A stretch of DNA of 9,538 bases from Candidatus Alcyoniella australis (lineage in GTDB: Bacteria; Lernaellota; Lernaellaia; JAVCCG01; Alcyoniellaceae): assembly GCA_030765605.1 (NCBI GenBank), contig JAVCCG010000086.1, positions 1-9,538 on the forward strand, given 5' to 3'. The notes under the pieces are model-generated. The model did no database searches, had not been told where the DNA came from, and worked only from the letters and a program-made list of their open reading frames with translations. Shown piece by piece: positions 114-9,538 of the stretch. Every line of letters begins with the position of its first letter. Positions within the stretch are counted from its first letter, which is position 1. Both the position numbers and the translations under genes were made by a program.

Positions 114-131
114 ATTGCCGGCCGCGGTAAT
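114..131 (+). terminator. weak hairpin, possible terminator of the fragment ending at 93
   Basis: The sequence can fold as a 7-bp stem (ATTGCCG paired with CGGTAAT, with one G-U pair) around a GCCG loop. It is followed by a poor T-tract (TGTTGC), so at most it is an inefficient terminator. Its position just after a possible stop codon and before the PilZ gene also argues against using TTG 115, which lies inside the hairpin, as the start of the PilZ gene. Confidence 0.25.
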
Positions 132-133
132 TG

Positions 134-163
134 TTGCATCCCCACTGAACATACTGCTAGGTT
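134..163 (+). promoter_or_regulatory. weak candidate promoter for the PilZ gene
   Basis: TTGCAT (134-139) and TAGGTT (158-163) are 18 bases apart, and the -10 is preceded by TG one base away (155-156), an extended -10 arrangement. The -10 matches the TATAAT consensus at only 3 of 6 positions. Initiation near 169-171 would leave a short leader containing GGGATTGGGA before ATG 184. This is inference from motif reading only. Confidence 0.22.
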
Positions 164-183
164 CAACTGGGATTGGGATCGAT

Positions 184-888
184 ATGGATAATGAAAAAAG
201 AGAAGAACAGCGATTGAGACTGCGCGTATCACGCCAGTTGCTTGCCATGGTCAGCTACGCCGACGAGCGCTTCGCGGTCTATATCCAAAACATGACCGAA
301 AAGGGAATCGGCATCAGCGGCAACCGCAACCTCGAGATCGGCGTGGAGCTGGGTGTCGAGGTGAACATCCCGCAGAACCCGACGCTGCAGCTGGGCGGAG
401 TGGTGAGTTGGAGCCGCTCGCTGCCGGTGATCGCCACGCACAAGTTCATGATGGGTGTGCGCCTGATCGAGCCGCCGCTGACGTATATCGACTACGTCGC
501 GCAGCTGACAAAGCGTGATTTCGAGCGTCGCGAGCATCCGCGCTACAGCGACATCCTCGAGATCTATAGCGACGACGTTCTCGACCTGCTGGAGGCGGCC
601 ACTGCGGACGTGGCGGCCAAGGGGCTCTACGTGCGCACGCGGCGGATGCTGCAAGTCGGCCAGCACCTTGAGATGAAGCTCTGCGGCAAAAATCTCGATC
701 CGCTGTACTGCCTGGCCGAGGTGATGACCAGTTTTCAGTGCGACGAGGACAGCCTCGACCACCCCTTTGGCGCCGGAGTGCGCATCCTGTCCTTCGCCGG
801 CTCCAACGAGGCCCGCTTCCTGGACTACTTGAAGTACCTCAAGCACCTCTACGAGTTCCACTGGCCCGATAAGAGCGGATCCGAATAA
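184..888 (+). CDS. tandem PilZ-domain protein, likely c-di-GMP-responsive
   Basis: The product is a soluble 234-residue protein with no signal peptide or membrane segment, predicted to be cytoplasmic. It appears to contain two PilZ-like modules. Module 1 (about 9-97) has R10-xxx-R14, then N36-M-T-E-K-G41 in place of (D/N)xSxxG, and closes with a GVRL strand near 91-94. Module 2 (about 112-215) has the classical arginine motif RREHPR (R116xxxR120), then D142-V-A-A-K-G147 and a closing GAGVRIL strand. PilZ domains bind cyclic di-GMP through the arginine motif and the (D/N)xSxxG motif. Here the serine is Thr in module 1 and Ala in module 2, so affinity may be altered or one module may be degenerate. 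The start at ATG 184 is preferred over TTG 115, which lies within a hairpin and would add unconserved-looking residues. GGGA lies upstream of ATG 184. The downstream exopolysaccharide operon suggests a role in controlling polysaccharide output, but this is inferred from neighbourhood only. Confidence 0.8.
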   Translation: MDNEKREEQRLRLRVSRQLLAMVSYADERFAVYIQNMTEKGIGISGNRNLEIGVELGVEVNIPQNPTLQLGGVVSWSRSLPVIATHKFMMGVRLIEPPLTYIDYVAQLTKRDFERREHPRYSDILEIYSDDVLDLLEAATADVAAKGLYVRTRRMLQVGQHLEMKLCGKNLDPLYCLAEVMTSFQCDEDSLDHPFGAGVRILSFAGSNEARFLDYLKYLKHLYEFHWPDKSGSE

Positions 889-891
889 TTG

Positions 892-926
892 ATGCGGGGG
901 GAATCAAAATAAAGGAAGCCCCGCAT
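892..926. repeat. inverted repeat ATGCGGGG / CCCCGCAT
   Basis: Two perfect 8-base arms (892-899 and 919-926) flank a 19-base purine-rich loop that contains AAAGGAAG. It starts four bases after the PilZ stop codon. There is no T-tract on either side, so it is not a standard intrinsic terminator. It could be an mRNA 3'-end stabiliser, a Rho-associated structure or a protein binding site. Confidence 0.45.
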
Positions 927-1157
927 GTGTCGTGTGGCGAGGAGATTGCGAACTGACTGTTACAAATAGGTTGTCCAGGCCAGCAGTTCCATCTGGTGGA
1001 TGCTCGGGCCTCGGACTTAGGAGTTTGTGTTGTCAATCGATCGTTATCGCCATCACGATCACTGCAGGACTCAGGTCCAACATACCATAGTGCCCAGGCG
1101 GATCAAGCAGGTTTATTACAGCGGCTGATGCCATTGCCGTACAACGGTTATTGCGGG

Positions 1158-1186
1158 TTGCCAAAGACTTATATCGAGCATAACCT
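1158..1186 (+). promoter_or_regulatory. weak candidate promoter of the exopolysaccharide operon
   Basis: TTGCCA (1158-1163) and TAACCT (1181-1186) are separated by 17 bases. The -35 matches TTGACA at 4 of 6 positions and the -10 matches TATAAT at 3 of 6. Transcription would start around 1193, roughly 24 bases before the chosen ATG at 1217, which also argues against ATG 1196 being the start. The location is sensible but the -10 is poor. Confidence 0.25.
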
Positions 1187-1216
1187 AGATTATTTATGAG
1201 ACAGAGGGAGTGCTCG

Positions 1217-2218
1217 ATGGCGGTTACAGGGAAATATCGGCCGCAAATCACAGCGATCATACTGGTCGTGTTGCTGACCCTGTGTTCCTGCGCCAAGAAC
1301 GTCGGCCCCGACTCCCAGACCGCGGAGCAACCGTTGATCAGCGTCGAGCGTCCGGGTGCTTCCGCCCTGCCCCCGACCCAGGCCGGGCCGTATACCCTGG
1401 GCTTGGATGACCTGCTGCTGATCACGGTTTACGGACGCGAGGAATTGCTCAAAGAGGGACCGATCGACCCGGACGGCGCGATCTTCGTGCCGTTGGTCGG
1501 CAGGGTGCCCGCAGCGGGATTGACCGTGGTCGAGTTGCAGATCGAGCTGACCGCTCTGCTCGCCCATTTTCTCCGCGATCCGCAGGTGGACGTGCAGATT
1601 ATCGAATATCGCTCGCGCAAGTTTTTTGTGCTCGGCGAGGTGTTGCAGCCCGGGGTGTTCGCCGGTCGTGGCGAAACCACCTTGATTGAGGCCGTGGGTC
1701 TGGCCGGCGGCCTGACGCAGGACGCCAACCTCTCCGAGGCCTTTTTAGTGCGCGAGGACAGCGTGGTTCCGGTCGATTTTCGTGCGCTGTTTCGCGGCGG
1801 CGAGACCGGACGGAATCTGCCGGTTCAGCGCGGCGACCTGATCTACGTGCCCTCGGCCAGCACATTGCGGGTCTACGTGCTGGGCGAGGTCAACCTGCCG
1901 ACCGTGGTGGTAATGCGCCACGGCAGGCTGACGCTGGCCGAGGCGATCGCCGAGGCCGGGGGCTTCAACGAGAACTACGCCTATAAAAGCGGTGTCCAGG
2001 TTGTGCGCGGAGGCCTGGCCGAGCCCACGGTCTATACCGTCAACTTCCGCGACGTACTGCGCGGACGGCAGCTCGACCGCTTCGATCTCGAGCCGGGCGA
2101 CATCGTCTTTGTGCCGGCCACCGGGCTGACCAAGTGGGAGCGCGCCATGCAGCAGCTGCTGCCCAACCTCTCGCGGATCATCGTCGATGCCGCGGCAGCA
2201 CAATCCCTGGTCCAGTAG
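1217..2218 (+). CDS. Wza-type outer-membrane polysaccharide export lipoprotein (Poly_export + SLBB domains)
   Basis: The product is 333 residues and would form the outer-membrane channel through which capsule or exopolysaccharide leaves the cell. An N-terminal hydrophobic segment (about 11-24) ends in LCSC, giving a lipobox with Cys25 as the acylated residue. A Poly_export domain follows (about 57-135, starting YTLGLDDLLLITVYG). Two SLBB beta-grasp repeats come next, each opening with the signature VLGEV (near 138-142 and 221-225). The C-terminal segment from Trp307 (WERAMQQLLPNLSRII) resembles the amphipathic outer-membrane helix of Wza/GumB-like proteins. ATG 1217 is chosen because GGGAG (1206-1210) sits six bases upstream; ATG 1196 lacks a site and would add a charged extension before the signal sequence. 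The gene stops 20 bases before the Wzc-type gene, so the two are very likely co-transcribed. The specific polysaccharide cannot be deduced. Confidence 0.93.
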   Translation: MAVTGKYRPQITAIILVVLLTLCSCAKNVGPDSQTAEQPLISVERPGASALPPTQAGPYTLGLDDLLLITVYGREELLKEGPIDPDGAIFVPLVGRVPAAGLTVVELQIELTALLAHFLRDPQVDVQIIEYRSRKFFVLGEVLQPGVFAGRGETTLIEAVGLAGGLTQDANLSEAFLVREDSVVPVDFRALFRGGETGRNLPVQRGDLIYVPSASTLRVYVLGEVNLPTVVVMRHGRLTLAEAIAEAGGFNENYAYKSGVQVVRGGLAEPTVYTVNFRDVLRGRQLDRFDLEPGDIVFVPATGLTKWERAMQQLLPNLSRIIVDAAAAQSLVQ

Positions 2219-2238
2219 GTGAGGGATTGAATCGCGGC

Positions 2239-4572
2239 ATGCCCTACCCCACGGCTCATAGCGGGCGCAGCGAGGCCGCAAGCCTGGCCGACTACCTGCG
2301 GATCATCTATCGCCGACGGCTGATCGCCGCGCTGACCTTTGCCGTGGTTTTCATCGGGACCGCAATTTGGACGATTCTCGCCACTCCGCTGTACGAGGCG
2401 TCGAGCACTGTACAGGTCCTTGAGGAGGGCGGACAGGATACGCTGCTCTCCGACCTGGCCAAGCTCGGTAAGGGCAGCCCGGTGGCGGACGAAATGGAGA
2501 TCATCCGCAGCCGCACCGTGGCCGAGGGGGTCGTGGGCGAGCTGCAGCTGGACCGGCGGATCATCGGCAACGGCGACGCCTACGCCCAGCTGGTCGAGCT
2601 CAACGTGCCGCCCGAGCAAATGGGACGTCCCTACGAGCTGCGCTTTGTCGACGAGAACGGCGCCTTCGAGATCAGCGATCCGGACGGCGGGACGATGGGC
2701 ACGGCCCGGTCCGAAGAACTGTTCAAGACGCCGATACTGACGCTGCGGATCGACAATGTGCGCGCCAAGCGGGGCGACCTGCTCTCGATCGTTCAGGTCC
2801 CGTTCGAGCAGGCGGTGTGGGAGGTCCAGGACAACACCCGCGTGCGGCAGGTCGGCGAGAAGACCAACATCATCGGCGTAAGCTACACCAGCCGCGATCC
2901 GTTGTTGGCCGCGCGGGTCGTCAACGCCTTGGTGACGATCTACCGTCGGCAGAACATCGAGCAGAGGTCGGCCGAGGCCAGCCAGACGCTGAGCTTTATC
3001 CAGGCCTCGCTGCAAGTGGTTCAGGAGCAACTGGACAGCAGCGAGGACGAGCTGCAGCGCTTCAAGTCCGAGAACGGCGTGATGCTGCTCTCCTCCGAGG
3101 CCGAGGCGTTGATCGAGCAGCTGGCGCGCTTCGAGGCCCAACTCTACGAAGTACGGATGCGCGCGACGGAGGTGCAGCAGGTGCTTGACCACCTGCTCGC
3201 CGGCCGGGCCGAGCAGGCGCTGACCATGCTGCCGGCGGTCCAGCGCGAGGACGTGGTGCTCTCGACCCACGGGATCGAGCTGGCCGAGCTGGTCAAGCAA
3301 CGCCGCGGCCTGCTGTCGGTTCTGACCGAGAACCACCCCGAGGTGCGCGCGGTCCAGGCGCAGATCGAACAAGTCCAGGACAACATCGAGCAGGTGTTGC
3401 TCTCTAGCCGTGCCACGCTGTTGGGCCGCGCCCAGAGCCTGCAGGGGGTGGTCGACGACTATTTGGCGCAGCTGGGGCAATTGCCCAGCACCGAGCGCGA
3501 TCTGGCGTCGCTGGCGCGCACCAGGCAGGTCAACGAAGGGATCTACACCCTGCTGCTGCAGAAGCGCGAGGAGGCGCGGATCGCCAAGGCGGCCACAGTG
3601 GGCAATATCCGCGTGATCGACAGCGCCATCGTACCCAAGGTGCCGGTGCGGCCCAAGGTCAAGCTCAACCTACTGATGGGCCTGATCGTCGGGCTGCTGG
3701 CGGCCCTGGGCGCGGCGTTCCTGCTCGAGTTCGTCGACGACTCGATCCGTACCGTCGAGGAGGTCGAGCGGCTGACCGGCAAGCCCAGCTACGGCACGAT
3801 TCCGCGCATCGCCGATTCGCGTCGCGGAGCAGAGGCTCCGCCGGGCATCTCGCCGCAATTGGTGACCAGGCTCAACCCCAAGAGTCCGGCCAGCGAGGCC
3901 TTCCGCTCGCTGCGCACCAACCTGCAGTTCGGCGACCCGGACCACAAGCTGCACACATTGCTGGTCACCAGCGCCGGACCCGGCGAGGGTAAAAGCACGA
4001 TCTCGGCCAACCTGGCGGTGACGATAGCCGCGGCCGGACGGCGCGTGTTGCTGATCGACGCCGACCTGCGCAAGCCGAGCATCAACCGCATTTTCCAGAT
4101 CGAGCGCGAGCCTGGATTGACCAACGTGCTCACCGGCCAGAACGCATGGCGCGATGTGGTCCGCTCCACGCAGATCGAGGGGCTGGACGTGCTCGCCTCC
4201 GGTCCGATTCCGCCCAATCCCACGGAGATCATGTACAGCAAGGCGATGCGCGGCCTGCTAGACGAGCTGCGCCAGGAATACGAGATGTTGATTTTCGACT
4301 CGCCGCCGGTGATCGCCGTGACCGATGCCGCGATTTTGGGGGCGATGCTCGACGCCACACTGCTGGTGGTTGAGCTGGGCCGGGCCCGGGCCGATGCGGT
4401 GCAGCGGGCGATCAGCCTGTTGGCAAACGTCGACGCCAACCTGCTGGGTGTGGTGAGCAACAACATCAGCATGGCCGGCGGCGGGCACTACGGCTACTAT
4501 TACTATTACCAAGACGACGAGGGGTCCGTGAAGCGCAAGCGCAGCCGCAGGGCCCGCAGCAAGCGACCCTGA
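2239..4572 (+). CDS. Wzc-type polysaccharide co-polymerase with fused bacterial tyrosine kinase (BY-kinase)
   Basis: The 777-residue inner-membrane protein should control chain length and export of the polysaccharide by cycles of tyrosine autophosphorylation. TM1 spans about 28-47, followed by a Wzz-type periplasmic region with coiled-coil stretches. The NHPEVRAVQ segment and a proline-containing motif (PKVPVRPK) lead into TM2 (about 476-497). The cytoplasmic kinase has Walker A GPGEGKST (580-587, Lys585), Walker A' VLLIDADLRKPS (603-614, Asp607/Asp609) and Walker B MLIFDSPP (683-690). The tail carries a tyrosine cluster (Tyr751, 753-757), the usual autophosphorylation site, then a strongly basic end (K765 to P777). 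ATG 2239 is chosen since the region upstream in frame overlaps the preceding gene and encodes no conserved sequence; the nearest Shine-Dalgarno (AGGGA, 2222-2226) is about 12 bases away, rather far. Wzc from Escherichia coli is about 720 residues, so this protein is slightly long. No phosphatase gene is adjacent in the window. Confidence 0.95.
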   Translation: MPYPTAHSGRSEAASLADYLRIIYRRRLIAALTFAVVFIGTAIWTILATPLYEASSTVQVLEEGGQDTLLSDLAKLGKGSPVADEMEIIRSRTVAEGVVGELQLDRRIIGNGDAYAQLVELNVPPEQMGRPYELRFVDENGAFEISDPDGGTMGTARSEELFKTPILTLRIDNVRAKRGDLLSIVQVPFEQAVWEVQDNTRVRQVGEKTNIIGVSYTSRDPLLAARVVNALVTIYRRQNIEQRSAEASQTLSFIQASLQVVQEQLDSSEDELQRFKSENGVMLLSSEAEALIEQLARFEAQLYEVRMRATEVQQVLDHLLAGRAEQALTMLPAVQREDVVLSTHGIELAELVKQRRGLLSVLTENHPEVRAVQAQIEQVQDNIEQVLLSSRATLLGRAQSLQGVVDDYLAQLGQLPSTERDLASLARTRQVNEGIYTLLLQKREEARIAKAATVGNIRVIDSAIVPKVPVRPKVKLNLLMGLIVGLLAALGAAFLLEFVDDSIRTVEEVERLTGKPSYGTIPRIADSRRGAEAPPGISPQLVTRLNPKSPASEAFRSLRTNLQFGDPDHKLHTLLVTSAGPGEGKSTISANLAVTIAAAGRRVLLIDADLRKPSINRIFQIEREPGLTNVLTGQNAWRDVVRSTQIEGLDVLASGPIPPNPTEIMYSKAMRGLLDELRQEYEMLIFDSPPVIAVTDAAILGAMLDATLLVVELGRARADAVQRAISLLANVDANLLGVVSNNISMAGGGHYGYYYYYQDDEGSVKRKRSRRARSKRP

Positions 4573-4574
4573 CT

Positions 4575-5777
4575 TTGTCCCAAGCCACCTGCCTCTACAG
4601 CATCGCCGCGCACCTCAACGGCGGAGGCATCGGGCGCATTGCCAAGTACGCGGCCCTGGGGCTTTTCCGGGCGGGCCTACTCGGCGAGTTGGCGTGCCAA
4701 GGGGTGCAACGGGGAATCCTGCCCGACGAGCTGGTGCAGCGCCGCCCGTTTCGTCTGCCGCGCCGCCTGGTGCGGCCGCTGTCGGACCAGAGTTACTACT
4801 ATCTGAAGAACCTCGATTTCGACCGCTGGCAGCGCAGGATGGTCGACAACGACCACCCGCTGTACCACGGCTGGACCGCCCAGGCCCCACGCTCGCTGGA
4901 ACTGGCGCAACGCGCTGGCAAGCGCACAATCCTAACCCGTGGATCCACGCACATTCTCAGCCAGGCGCGGCTGATCGCCGAGGCCGGCCTCGAGGTCGGC
5001 GTGAAGCGCGAGCCGATCATGCCCGCGGTGGTGGCGCGCTGCCTCGATGAGTACCGGATCGCCGACCTGATCGTGGTGCCCAGCGAGTTCGTCAAACGCA
5101 GTTTCGAGGAAAACGGCCACTCGCGGGACAACCTGATCGTGGTCCCGTTCGGCGTGGACCCGCTGGTCGATTGGCCGCACCCCGAGTTCAACGTCAGGCC
5201 GTCCGGACCGTATCGGCTGCTGTTTGTCGGCCAGGTCAGCCTACGCAAGGGCGTGGTGCCGCTGCTCAAAGCGATCAAAATTTTGCACCAGCGCGGAAGC
5301 GATCTGATCCTGAACATGGCCGGCGTCGTTGACGCTCAGGCCAGGCAGATCATCGATCGGCTGGACTTTCCCCGCGACAAGGTGGTCTTCCTCGACTTCG
5401 TGCCCCACCCCGCGGGCTATATGTCGGTTGCCGACGCCTTTGTCTTTCCGACCTATGAGGAGGGTTCGGCCTTGGTGACCTACGAGGCGATGGCTGCGGG
5501 CGCGCCGATGATCACCACGGCCAACGCCGGGTCGATCGCCCGCCACGAGCAGGAGGCGCTGCTGGTGCCGCCCGGAGACGCGCAGGCGATTGCCGATGCC
5601 GTGCAACGCTTGATGGACGATCCGCAGCTGGCAACGCAACTGGGACAAGCTGCCAGAGCGCGAGTGGCCCCCTATTCCTGGGACCTGTACGGCGCGCGCA
5701 TCGCCCTGGTCCATCGGCTGGCTGCACAGGGGCTGGATCGGGCGGAAATACAGCGGCAAATAGATGACATGGTATAA
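4575..5777 (+). CDS. GT4-like (GT-B fold) glycosyltransferase of the exopolysaccharide operon
   Basis: The 400-residue cytosolic enzyme is predicted to transfer a sugar from a nucleotide-sugar donor onto the growing polysaccharide or its lipid-linked repeat unit. The N-terminal acceptor domain has a glycine-rich loop (NGGGIGRIAKY, 15-25). The C-terminal donor domain opens with LLFVGQVSLRKG (215-226) and contains the retaining-GT E-x7-E motif (Glu296 and Glu304 within YEEGSALVTYEAMAAG), followed by the typical LLVPPGD and a C-terminal helix (AIADAVQRLMDDP). These are hallmarks of CAZy family GT4, but donor, acceptor and linkage are unknown. TTG 4575 is the only near-cognate start that preserves the first beta-strand (CLYSIAAH). 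It lies two bases after the kinase stop and has no clear Shine-Dalgarno, so translation is probably coupled to the kinase gene. No other transferase, flippase or polymerase gene follows in the window. Confidence 0.88.
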   Translation: MSQATCLYSIAAHLNGGGIGRIAKYAALGLFRAGLLGELACQGVQRGILPDELVQRRPFRLPRRLVRPLSDQSYYYLKNLDFDRWQRRMVDNDHPLYHGWTAQAPRSLELAQRAGKRTILTRGSTHILSQARLIAEAGLEVGVKREPIMPAVVARCLDEYRIADLIVVPSEFVKRSFEENGHSRDNLIVVPFGVDPLVDWPHPEFNVRPSGPYRLLFVGQVSLRKGVVPLLKAIKILHQRGSDLILNMAGVVDAQARQIIDRLDFPRDKVVFLDFVPHPAGYMSVADAFVFPTYEEGSALVTYEAMAAGAPMITTANAGSIARHEQEALLVPPGDAQAIADAVQRLMDDPQLATQLGQAARARVAPYSWDLYGARIALVHRLAAQGLDRAEIQRQIDDMV

Positions 5778-6461: not shown

Positions 6462-7139
6462 CTACATGCAGATGTCGCCCATTCCCGGAGGATAGGAGGC
6501 GATTCCGCACTCGAGGTGTCCTAACTGCATCAGGGCTTTGCGCCCTTCGGGCATCACTTGGATCGCCATGTTGCCGCCGCCTTGGTCGACCAGCATTACC
6601 TCGATCATCTGCGCGTCGAGGGCAGAGGCGCTGAAGTAGGCGCCGATATCGCCGGTCGAGGCCACATCGAAGGTGCCGTTGTAGCACATGAACGCCTTCT
6701 CGTAGGTGAAGGTCATGTCCATGTTGATCGTCATATTGTGGATATAAATGACCATGATCGCGGGCTGCGTGGACGTATCGTTATAGTCCCAGGTCAGGTC
6801 GTACTGGCCTGCCGTGGGCGCAGCCGAGGGCTGGAACATAAACATGATGTGGCTGCCGGACAGGGCGATGGAATCCTGGCCGTCGGCCTGCATCTGTCCG
6901 CCGTAGAGCACCACGAAGGTCATTGCCGGGACGAACCCGTCGATAACCATGTCGTAGTCCACCGGGTCGTCGTCGTCGTCGCCAATATCGTCGTCGTCGC
7001 CCGTATCGTCGTCGTCATCGTCGTCGACAAGGTCGTCGTCGTCATCGTCGTCGCCCTGGTCGCACGACACTGCCAGCCCGAGCACTAGGCCCAGAGAACA
7101 CAGCAGGATCAGCAGATAGAGGACCCTGAATCTCTTCAT
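6462..7139 (-). CDS. poly-aspartate-linker lipoprotein of unknown function
   Basis: The 225-residue product begins MKRFRVLYLLILLCSLGLV, a signal sequence ending in a lipobox (LAVSC) with Cys26 as the predicted lipidated residue. Directly after it lies a low-complexity linker (30-58) of four aspartate runs of 7, 7, 4 and 5, separated by LV, TG and IG. The remaining roughly 165 residues look beta-rich (repeated YDLTWDYN, MVIYIHNMTINMDMTFTY) with cysteines near the C terminus, and match no family I know. Asp27 sits at the +2 position; in E. coli this would favour inner-membrane retention, but the rule may not apply here. The start at 7139 is chosen for AAGGAGA eight bases upstream and for the signal sequence; longer in-frame starts lack both. 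A strong terminator follows. The linker may bind cations such as Ca2+ or act as an extended charged spacer, which is inference. Confidence 0.85.
   Translation of the reverse strand: MKRFRVLYLLILLCSLGLVLGLAVSCDQGDDDDDDDLVDDDDDDDTGDDDDIGDDDDDPVDYDMVIDGFVPAMTFVVLYGGQMQADGQDSIALSGSHIMFMFQPSAAPTAGQYDLTWDYNDTSTQPAIMVIYIHNMTINMDMTFTYEKAFMCYNGTFDVASTGDIGAYFSASALDAQMIEVMLVDQGGGNMAIQVMPEGRKALMQLGHLECGIASYPPGMGDICM
6966..7052 (-). repeat. GAC/GAT trinucleotide tract encoding the poly-Asp linker
   Basis: Almost every codon in this 87-base stretch is GAC, with occasional GAT, seen as repeated GTC on the + strand. Near-pure trinucleotide runs are prone to slippage, and in-frame length changes would alter linker length without breaking the frame. 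The interruptions (LV, TG, IG) and mixed GAC/GAT use suggest the tract is maintained and not a freshly expanded one. Confidence 0.8.
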
Positions 7140-7204
7140 TGGAAATTCTCCTTTCGCGACCAAACCCAATCGCAGGCAATCTGTATCGAACTGTAACCAG
7201 CCAT

Positions 7205-7234
7205 GTATTACCCTCCGCAATCCAGTGTTGTCAA
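7205..7234 (-). promoter_or_regulatory. promoter of the poly-Asp lipoprotein gene
   Basis: On the - strand a perfect TTGACA (complement of 7229-7234) is followed, after 18 bases, by TAATAC (complement of 7205-7210), a 3 of 6 match to the -10 consensus. Transcription would start near 7198, about 58 bases before the lipoprotein ATG. The perfect -35 and its correct position make it a reasonable call despite the weak -10. Confidence 0.5.
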
Positions 7235-7281
7235 GCGTCCGCCCATCGAGCGCACGAAGTCCCTTTTCTTGCATATGCACT

Positions 7282-7309
7282 TTGCAACTGCGCAAGCCGC
7301 GGTTAGAAT
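7282..7309 (+). promoter_or_regulatory. promoter of the HAD phosphatase gene, predicting a leaderless transcript
   Basis: TTGCAA (7282-7287, 4 of 6 matches) and TAGAAT (7304-7309, 5 of 6 matches) are spaced 16 bases apart. The initiation codon A lies only 10 bases after the end of the -10, so initiation would fall at about 7316-7319, at or next to the ATG. No Shine-Dalgarno is present between, which fits a leaderless mRNA. Confidence 0.5.
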
Positions 7310-7318
7310 CTGCGGCCA

Positions 7319-7978
7319 ATGAAACCTACCCTGTTATTCGACCTCGACGGCACTTTGGTTGACTCGCGAATGGACATCGCCCAGGCGATCAATCACGCGA
7401 TCGAGCTCTACGGCGGCATCAAGGCACCCATCGAGTCGGTTCTGCCCTACATCGGCACGACCCTCGAGGCGACGTTCCAGGGGCTGATGCACGAGCCCTC
7501 GCCCGAGACGATCGAGGCCTGTACCGACGAGTATAAGAGCTACTACTTTGACCACTGCGACGTCTACTCCAAGCCGTTTGCCGGGGTGAAGCAAACTCTG
7601 ACGCAGCTACGCGGACATCGGATGGCAGTGGTCACCACCAAGCGCTCGTACATGGCTCAGCAGCTTTTACAGAAGATGGACCTGGCCGAGCACTTCGAGC
7701 TGATCCTCGGCACGGATCCCGACATTTTACCCAAGCCCGATCCGGCGTTGATCCTGCGGGCCTGCGATCTGCTGGAGTGCGAGCCGCGCCGCAGCGTGCT
7801 GATCGGCGACACGGAGTACGACATCCGAGCGGCCCACGCGGCAGGTTGCAAGGTGATCGCCGCACTCTACGGATTCGGCGATCCACAGCAGCTTGAACAG
7901 CTGGACCCCGATGCCGTGGCCCAAAGTTTTGACCAGATTTCCGGCCTGATCCGACGGCTGTTCAGCGACCAACCCTGA
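7319..7978 (+). CDS. HAD-superfamily phosphatase, phosphoglycolate phosphatase (Gph)-like
   Basis: The 219-residue cytosolic hydrolase carries all four HAD motifs. Motif I is FDLDGTLVDS, with nucleophile Asp8 and acid/base Asp10. Motif II is VVTTK (Thr106). Motif III is the lysine in LPKPDP (Lys139). Motif IV is IGDTEYD (Asp164 and Asp168, Mg2+ binding). An alpha-helical cap lies between motifs I and II (about residues 15-80), a C1-type cap as in Gph, PGMB and related enzymes. Gph dephosphorylates 2-phosphoglycolate, but substrate preference in this subfamily cannot be read from motifs, so pyrophosphatase, beta-phosphoglucomutase or other sugar phosphatase roles remain open. The start ATG 7319 begins two residues before the core strand (TLLFDLDG) and has no Shine-Dalgarno, but sits just after a promoter. 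It converges with the repeat-protein gene, stop to stop, with 18 bases between. Confidence 0.9.
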   Translation: MKPTLLFDLDGTLVDSRMDIAQAINHAIELYGGIKAPIESVLPYIGTTLEATFQGLMHEPSPETIEACTDEYKSYYFDHCDVYSKPFAGVKQTLTQLRGHRMAVVTTKRSYMAQQLLQKMDLAEHFELILGTDPDILPKPDPALILRACDLLECEPRRSVLIGDTEYDIRAAHAAGCKVIAALYGFGDPQQLEQLDPDAVAQSFDQISGLIRRLFSDQP

Positions 7979-7996: not shown

Positions 7997-8404
7997 CTAT
8001 TTAACGGCCTTGTAGGGCAGCTTCTTGCCGCTGCGGCACAGGGAGCGCAAATCGGCGTCCGTGACGAATCCGCAGTCGCCGCGGCACAGGTTGCGCAGGT
8101 TCGAATCCTTGATGATCCCGCATTCGCCGCGGCAGAAATTACGCAGGTCCGAGTCCTGGATGAACCCGCAGTCCTTACGGCAGTAATTGCGCAAGTCCGA
8201 ATCGTTGATAAATCCGCAATCGCCGCGACACAGATTGCGCAGGTCCGAATCATCGATGAACCCGCAATCGCCGCGGCAGTAGTTGCGCAGGTCCGAATCG
8301 GCGATCAGTCCGCAGTCGTCGCCCCGCGCATTTTGCACAGTGGCAAGCAGCAGCATCGAGGCGGCCAGGCAGACGATCACCAACGCCAAGGATATTCTTT
8401 TCAT
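7997..8404 (-). CDS. secreted protein of six 16-residue two-cysteine repeats, function unknown
   Basis: The 135-residue product has a Sec-type signal peptide (MKRISLALVIVCLAASMLLLA, cleavage around residues 26-28). The mature protein is almost entirely six back-to-back repeats (30-125) of consensus DCGFIxDSDLRNxCRG, with a short basic tail (GKKLPYKAVK). Each repeat has cysteines at positions 2 and 14, so the mature chain has 12 cysteines, an even number that suits disulphides or metal binding in the oxidising envelope. The DSDLRN core is nearly invariant; position 6 varies (A, D, N, Q, K, T) and position 13 is Y, L or F. I do not recognise the family. The start at 8404 is chosen because the signal peptide begins there; GGGGG (complement of 8413-8417) is the nearest upstream purine block. 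Longer in-frame starts add 16 unlikely residues before it. Confidence 0.82.
   Translation of the reverse strand: MKRISLALVIVCLAASMLLLATVQNARGDDCGLIADSDLRNYCRGDCGFIDDSDLRNLCRGDCGFINDSDLRNYCRKDCGFIQDSDLRNFCRGECGIIKDSNLRNLCRGDCGFVTDADLRSLCRSGKKLPYKAVK
8030..8317 (-). repeat. six tandem 48-bp coding repeats
   Basis: Six contiguous units of exactly 48 bases encode the 16-residue repeats. Compared as DNA they differ at many third positions (for example GCCGCGGCAGTAG versus CTTACGGCAGTAA on the + strand) while keeping the same protein consensus. That implies old duplications held by selection and no recent array expansion. Confidence 0.9.
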
Positions 8405-8487: not shown

Positions 8488-8523
8488 CCGACGAGCTTAA
8501 CGCACCCGTAGTGGAGGATGCCG

Positions 8524-9538
8524 ATGAGTCTGTTAATGCGTCTGTTGATCAGCGTCGCCCTGTTGCTGCTGCCCGCGGCGGCCGTGGCTGTGGACGATCA
8601 GTATCTTGAGGACAAGGCCGTTGAGTACGACCAGTGGTTTCAGCAGTGGTGTTCCACGGGTTACGGCGGTGCGAGCGAGGTCCATTTCACCGACGAGACG
8701 CTGAGCGCGATCCAGTCTCTGGGAGGCACCGGCGATTCGACGATTTGGACCGGAACCTACCTTGCGGGCGAAGCGTACCGCTACGCGGTGACCGGCGACC
8801 AGCAGGCCTTTGACAACGCGGTCAAGGCCGTGCAGACCTTGCATACCCACCTCAAAATTACCGGCAGCCCGGGCTACATCGCACGCTACGCCGGTCCGGA
8901 CGAGGCGCCCTACAACAGCGGCTACGTCGGGGGGCACAGTCGCTACCATCAGGGCGAAGGCGAATACGAGGGGAGCTTTTGGGTCGGCGAGACCAGCCGC
9001 GATCAGTACACCGGCTGGTTCCTGGGAATGGCCGTGGCCTACGATCTGCTCGACGACGAGGAGATTCGCCAAATGATCCGCGAGGACATCGTCGAGGTGG
9101 TCGACACCGCGCGCTTCTACTATTGGTTCATCATCAAAGAGACCGGCACGCCGAGCACCGTGGCCGCGCAGATTACGCCGACCATGCAACTGGACTGGTC
9201 GTTGATCGAGGCCCACGTCACCGACGATCCCTACTACTGGAAACTCTACGAAGAGCGCTTTGAAAAGGTGGCTCCGATGCTGCCGATCGATGCAAAGATC
9301 GGCTTCTTCAACCGCTACTACGAGCATTACGGGCTCAATCTAAGCCACGAGACTTGGTTCAACATTCTACGTCTCGAGCGCGACCCCAACCGTCTGGCGT
9401 TCTACAGGCAGGTCTTTGACGAAAACGTCCGCCCCACGGTCCACAAAGCGCACAACGTCTGGTACGACTACATCTATTTGGCCAACTTCGGCCAGGCGGC
9501 GCGCGATTACCAGTGGACGATCGAGGACGACCTGCGCC
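8524..9538 (+). CDS. secreted protein with possible alpha/alpha-toroid (glycosidase-like) domain, 3' end beyond the window
   Basis: An open frame runs from ATG 8524 to the window edge with no stop (338 codons visible). GGAGGA (8513-8518) lies five bases upstream; in-frame ATG 8518 overlaps this site and is less likely. A signal peptide (MSLLMRLLISVALLLLPAAAVA) probably ends at Ala22, followed by VDDQYL, with no lipobox. The visible mature part is rich in Trp, Tyr and acidic residues. It contains segments like IWTGTYLAGEAYRYAVTGD (74-92) and GSPGYIARY (114-122), which resemble the helix-hairpin-helix pattern of (alpha/alpha)6 glycosidase-type toroids where each hairpin ends near a TGD turn. 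I cannot name a family, and catalytic residues are not evident. The role could be carbohydrate binding or hydrolysis in the envelope, but this is an inference from the fold pattern alone. It is divergent from the hexa-repeat gene. Confidence 0.8.
   Translation, partial: MSLLMRLLISVALLLLPAAAVAVDDQYLEDKAVEYDQWFQQWCSTGYGGASEVHFTDETLSAIQSLGGTGDSTIWTGTYLAGEAYRYAVTGDQQAFDNAVKAVQTLHTHLKITGSPGYIARYAGPDEAPYNSGYVGGHSRYHQGEGEYEGSFWVGETSRDQYTGWFLGMAVAYDLLDDEEIRQMIREDIVEVVDTARFYYWFIIKETGTPSTVAAQITPTMQLDWSLIEAHVTDDPYYWKLYEERFEKVAPMLPIDAKIGFFNRYYEHYGLNLSHETWFNILRLERDPNRLAFYRQVFDENVRPTVHKAHNVWYDYIYLANFGQAARDYQWTIEDDLR

Follow-up and report, generated by a model that had tools for sequence, protein, structure and literature searches.

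Closed toroidal repeat proteins with Velcro closure, such as the beta-propellers, have a fixed number of repeats, end fragments that jointly complete one repeat, and circular permutants. The twin CX3C proteins, of the small Tim and CHCH type, are a second point of comparison for the gene described here, which lies in the window (the whole stretch of DNA that was analysed, 9,538 nucleotides of a contig of Candidatus Alcyoniella australis). As in beta-propeller-type toroids, the N- and C-terminal fragments of permuted members of this family complete one repeat (seven relatives, at the sequence level). The differences are that the modules would be helical, 13 residues long and held by one disulfide each in an array of about 96 residues, that the closing contact would be a disulfide, and that there is no sequence relationship. 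Like the twin CX3C proteins, the short-linker members have C-x3-C and C-x11-C spacings. Unlike them, the family does not keep C-x3-C (linkers of 7-12 residues in most others), and it is bacterial, probably Sec-exported and built of six modules.

A six-unit protein with a signal peptide

The features of the gene are listed in Table 1. The 135-aa translation of 7997-8404 on the minus strand consists of MKRISLALVIVCLAASMLLLATVQNARGD, followed by six 16-residue units and a short basic tail, in agreement with the preliminary description, which had proposed an exported protein made almost only of repeats. The units start at residues 30, 46, 62, 78, 94, and 110. Each of the 12 cysteines in the repeat region occupies one of two unit positions, and one extra cysteine is found in the signal peptide. 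The ATG is at 8404 with a Shine-Dalgarno-like GGGGGT upstream, and a scan for a promoter and a terminator found neither. TRF reports a 48-nt period (8058-8299, score 274) and a 96-nt period with a higher score (8066-8322, score 304). Tails resembling that of the window protein, e.g., G[RK]x[YW]PG, are present in L002, L026, L028-L030, L034, L098, L099, L111-L113, and L115.

Table 1. Features of the repeat-protein gene in the window
Feature	Position	Strand	Basis
CDS, six-unit exported protein (135 aa plus stop)	7997..8404	-	ORF translation
Signal peptide and first mature residues, 1-28 (KR, 18 hydrophobic residues, VQNA)	8321..8404	-	Sequence; cleavage site inferred
Unit 1, DCGLIADSDLRNYCRG	8270..8317	-	
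Unit 2, DCGFIDDSDLRNLCRG	8222..8269	-	
Unit 3, DCGFINDSDLRNYCRK	8174..8221	-	
Unit 4, DCGFIQDSDLRNFCRG	8126..8173	-	
Unit 5, ECGIIKDSNLRNLCRG	8078..8125	-	
Unit 6, DCGFVTDADLRSLCRS	8030..8077	-	
C-terminal tail GKKLPYKAVK, ten residues, basic	8000..8029	-	Compared with tails of relatives

The conserved unit is 13 residues long

Over all unit pairs of the window protein, pS is 0.55 and pN is 0.18, giving a ratio of 0.33. This synonymous divergence at a low pN/pS indicates that selection keeps the unit at the protein level while the DNA copies drift apart, which had been claimed before and is borne out by these values. A low-complexity or slippage artefact was ruled out by the same ratio together with the existence of distant homologues.

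Among 61 distinct proteins or fragments that were parsed, the conserved core comprises 13 residues, C-x2-I-x-[DN]-x-D-x-R-x2-C; the parser demanded the C1-C13 spacing, which by eye is also kept in nearly all units of the printed sequences. C1, I4, D/N6, D8, and C13 are constants of the family, and R10 is common. The linker from C13 to the next C1 ranges from 3 to 16 residues overall: the window protein belongs to a class with 3, and the other class has 7-12 and in one case 16. Linkers of 7-12 residues or more occur in about half of the relatives, with C1-C13 constant at 13. Given a fixed core and varying linkers, the unit is therefore the 13-residue core and not the 16-residue period. The DSDLRN core, previously described as nearly invariant, is real in the window repeats, but the family varies here (DLSD, DLAD or DLQD in L003 and L004).

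For the window protein and its relatives, nothing in Pfam-A exceeded the gathering score. NCBIfam gave no match above the cut-off, PHROGs and PADLOC none with E <0.005, and a sequence search of PDB chains nothing with E <0.5. The repeat thus has no match over the cut-off in these five collections, as expected from the earlier remark that it belongs to no named family. The best Pfam match of the window protein, PF21785 Bflower_2, had an E of 0.0016 and, at 18.7 bits, stayed below its cut-off of 38; the relatives do not match it. A literature search returned no text on these repeat strings or on such a cysteine-rich ring, and its one chance match concerned peanut nodulation genes.

Cysteines are lost in pairs

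In the complete six-unit relatives with 3-residue linkers (n = 17), 83 of the 102 units contain both cysteines, 19 contain neither and none contains a single one, although few independent events stand behind these counts, since the cysteine losses (and the permutations considered below) are partly shared by descent within clades. The units without cysteines retain the remaining motif (YGSISNNDLRYYG, TGFIQNADLRSYA). Counted from the first unit onward, the number of cysteines is even in all intact proteins, half units included. Because the cysteines vanish pairwise, C1 and C13 of one unit are most likely bonded to each other. Unit 3 has T/A in place of the pair in L002 and Y/G in others; in L025 the pair of unit 3 is intact and only that of unit 5 is missing. 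More than one loss step is therefore likely. The preliminary description had suggested a disulphide ladder and had named homologues without conserved cysteines as evidence against its reading. Disulfides are likely, but the pairwise losses point to one staple inside each unit instead of a ladder, and cysteines were indeed found missing from homologues, only as whole pairs.

Half-unit permuted relatives

Seven relatives (L027, L031, L032, L033, L036, L116, and L119) consist of a half unit, five units and another half unit, for a total of six. At the N terminus they carry a second half (..SD.R..C, e.g., SSSDMRYMC) and at the C terminus a first half (CGSI or similar), right at which the chain stops in five of the seven. 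With a PWM built on uncut proteins, the N-terminal half scored 14 to 23 bits in six of these relatives and -13 in L033, compared to about -32 to -60 in the uncut proteins, and the C-terminal half was set apart in all seven. L003, L004, L012/L014, L015, and L013/L016 have a similar N-terminal segment in which the cysteine is replaced, and have no C-terminal half. The N-terminal C13 and the C-terminal C1 are both present in the seven relatives and both absent in these five lineages (P = 0.0013, Fisher's exact test, uncorrected for relatedness).

The two end cysteines are about 90 residues apart in the sequence. If pairing is within units, the lone N-terminal C13 therefore meets the lone C-terminal C1 and the array closes. 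If pairing is across the linker, it is the uncut proteins, that of the window included, which need an end-to-end bond, and the units without cysteines strand their partners. Under either assumption at least one class, cut or uncut, would have its ends together, unless the pairing register switched between the classes. This pattern suggests that the six modules close into a ring.

Six is the commonest number of units

Six is the commonest unit count in both linker classes; the exceptions are L012/L014/L015 with about four units, L013/L016 with five, and L042 with two. Unit identity peaks at a separation of 3 in the long-linker class, many members of which have linkers of 10,10,12,10,10, and at a separation of 2 in the short-linker class; these periodicities are modest (0.056 and 0.048 of random unit orders score equally well). 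The layout of the long-linker proteins resembles 2 x 3, as would result from the doubling of a three-unit protein, and that of the short-linker proteins is closer to 3 x 2. Free two-unit and three-unit relatives occur. That six is reached by two routes is as a closed ring would require; the four- and five-unit exceptions are nevertheless real.

Predicted fold

AF2 modelling of the window protein from a four-sequence alignment (three homologues) gave a pLDDT of 32, too low to support either a ring or a helix for this protein. L137, a two-unit phage relative of 46 aa (14 sequences), gave five models, of which the best had pLDDT 93.9 and pTM 0.71 and two exceeded a pLDDT of 90; its linkers have 10 residues, unlike the 3-residue linkers of the window protein. 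The L137 model contains helices only, a short one holding C1 and a longer one that starts at the D-x-D cap, includes C13 and extends into the linker. Because this model is all-helical, a beta solenoid is unlikely for the unit. The regular solenoid anticipated earlier is probably a closed helical ring instead.

Foldseek found no match with E <4 for the two-unit model in PDB and BFVD; a very weak match was to the copper-binding periplasmic protein 7vw1 (E 4.3). VIA structural comparison of the same model gave a best Z of 3.0, too weak for a neighbour. This top hit, the Euplotes pheromone ER-10 (1erp, rmsd 1.5 over 32), is also small, disulfide-rich and helical, but the Z is far too low for claiming a shared fold and there is no sequence relation. 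Bflower_2, a 5-fold beta-flower protein, is alike in being, by its name, a small repeat fold with rotational symmetry; its beta blades contrast with the helices predicted for the two-unit relative, the window protein itself having only the low-confidence model given above.

Distribution and gene neighbourhood

Sources of the 61 distinct relatives and fragments are a single bacterial phylum (probably Myxococcota), megaplasmids of Pseudomonas, phages of ~90 kb, and plasmids of E. coli (two) and Atlantibacter (one). Scanning GTDB contigs with tblastn turned up three near relatives (E 1e-41 to 3e-34). The window gene is single copy within its own genome. Two profile or protein searches of the six further genomes in its small phylum found no relatives, and a third search found weak, frame-broken matches only, in one of these six. 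In the phylum of L004 (probably Myxococcota), a profile built from near relatives matched in 28 of 188 genomes, and a second profile detected relatives in 52 of 377. The family is nearly absent from a random sample of 386 bacterial genomes, where a DNA pattern matched three beyond the window's own, isolated single matches being near the noise level. A scan of a viral collection using the window-type alignment found no relatives.

Pseudomonas megaplasmids carry six-unit forms (L007, L008) and three-unit forms (L051, L053), three-unit relatives being present on about 115 of these megaplasmids, many of clinical-isolate origin. Across them, the three-unit relative (L051 3935-4204) usually lacks an entry in the plasmid gene table. 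On the L052 plasmid, an IS5-family transposase gene sits where the repeat reading frame breaks off. Two-unit forms are found in phages of about 90 kb (Touem01, Jeremy, and IMG/VR contigs L136-L157), and relatives of these phage forms occur on individual small plasmids from Atlantibacter and E. coli. L120, L121, and L124 are large proteins in which the motif C-x2-[IL]-x-D-x3-R-x2-C recurs many times, at intervals of about 30 residues. They possibly represent a wider superfamily with the same core; their membership is uncertain, and these longer, roughly 30-residue repeats were excluded from the counts.

No neighbour, except the family protein itself, is common to four or more of 26 loci, and the protein therefore appears to act alone. 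Several relatives have lipobox-like leaders, and the window protein has a signal peptide. About 20 phage contigs, many of them ~90 kb (L136-L157, L109 3962-4159, L110 3938-4144), share a conserved small gene for an exported two-unit relative. In nearly all of them it lies directly upstream of the genes for the prohead protease and the major capsid protein and, wherever a contig has both, between the prohead protease gene and a head gene that we take from our own reading of the sequence to be MuF-like. Two phage two-unit relatives tested against PHROGs gave no match. On one plasmid, a six-unit relative is located near an LprI-family lysozyme-inhibitor gene.

Elsewhere in the window, an exopolysaccharide locus occupies 115-5777 (+), with a PilZ protein, a polysaccharide export protein (SLBB), a Wzz/Wzc-type tyrosine kinase and a glycosyltransferase. 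A putative lipoprotein at 6462-7319 (-) has a long Asp-rich stretch (DDDDDDD...) behind a lipobox-like cysteine and matches no Pfam or NCBIfam family above the cut-off. The divergent neighbour at 8518-9537 (+) has a signal peptide, is open at the contig end, and has no Pfam or NCBIfam match over 340 aa.

Discussion

The explanation we favour, to which we give about an even chance, is that the gene product is an envelope scaffold of six helical modules, stapled by disulfides and closed on itself, that binds some partner. It would be a Sec-exported protein of six 13-residue modules, each an N-capped helix (D/N6-x-D8-x-R10-x2-C13) with its own C1-C13 disulfide to the preceding segment. The modules would close into a small ring in which the N and C termini touch, and the ring would serve as a rigid scaffold without enzymatic activity, located in the periplasm or on the envelope, with partner binding as its putative role. 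Sequence shows the repeats, the half-unit permutation and the lack of a known family, and also that six units predominate and that cysteines disappear pairwise. The all-helical fold comes from the prediction on the two-unit relative. What we infer is that the signal peptide is cleaved, that the disulfides form, that the ring closes and that the protein functions by binding.

Intra-unit pairs could instead staple an open helical solenoid that does not close; arrays of six would then reflect a preferred length, and the half-unit forms a simple shift of the repeat frame. Unit counts of two, three, four, and five do exist, and the two-unit AF2 model is compact and confident without a ring partner. 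However, the half-unit forms of such a solenoid would leave lone end cysteines in an oxidising compartment, yet both are retained in all seven and both are gone from five related lineages. The unit count of an open array should also vary freely, but six dominates both linker classes. We consider the open form rather unlikely. If the cysteines instead bridged the 3-residue linker (C13 to the next C1, CX3C) to give beads on a string, every cysteine of the seven permuted relatives would be paired without closing a ring. The conserved spacing argues otherwise, in that C1-C13 is fixed at 13 while about half of the relatives have longer linkers, of 7-12 residues or more. Moreover, the 19 of 102 units without cysteines would strand two partners, and the uncut forms, window included, would still require an end-to-end bond, which makes linker bridging a quite improbable arrangement.

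The 12 cysteines and many acidic residues within 96 residues could also point to an envelope protein with a repeated site for a metal or cofactor, as the preliminary description had offered, and the two-unit model has its very weak match to copper-binding 7vw1. That match is not significant, no histidine or methionine is conserved, and the number of cysteines is even throughout the intact proteins, half units included. Cysteines are lost pairwise from units that otherwise persist, and linkers of 3-16 residues leave no fixed multi-unit cluster; we regard this proposal as very unlikely and give it the least credence of the explanations considered. On a different level, the protein may have been captured by chromosomes from phage or plasmid competition, e.g., as an exported blocker of phage entry or a binder of cell-wall enzymes. 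Such an origin would suit the exported two-unit relatives that neighbour the genes for prohead protease and major capsid protein in nearly all of about 20 phage contigs, the three-unit relatives on the Pseudomonas megaplasmids, and the six-unit relative near the lysozyme-inhibitor gene. PADLOC gave no match, however, and the Myxococcota-type and window genes have no widely shared neighbours, so that we regard a role in competition as unlikely.

Returning to the closed six-module scaffold, we tentatively extend it to the family as a whole, as a possible, though not the probable, case: an undescribed superfamily of exported mini-modules (C-x2-I-x-[DN]-x-D-x-R-x2-C) that would assemble six to a ring, as one chain whose ends fall at one of two positions within the unit, and perhaps also as oligomers of three two-unit or two three-unit chains. 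If this is right, a new, unnamed disulfide-stapled repeat module is now recorded as "hypothetical protein" or left unannotated in chromosomes, megaplasmids, and phages of ~90 kb. The ring would be among the smallest closed repeat rings known, with some members sealed by an end-to-end disulfide, and would be carried by bacteria, megaplasmids, and phages alike. A ring of about 100 residues with natural permutants and two- and three-unit forms would provide a test system for the evolution of rings from shorter oligomers, and would offer a very small stable scaffold for protein design.
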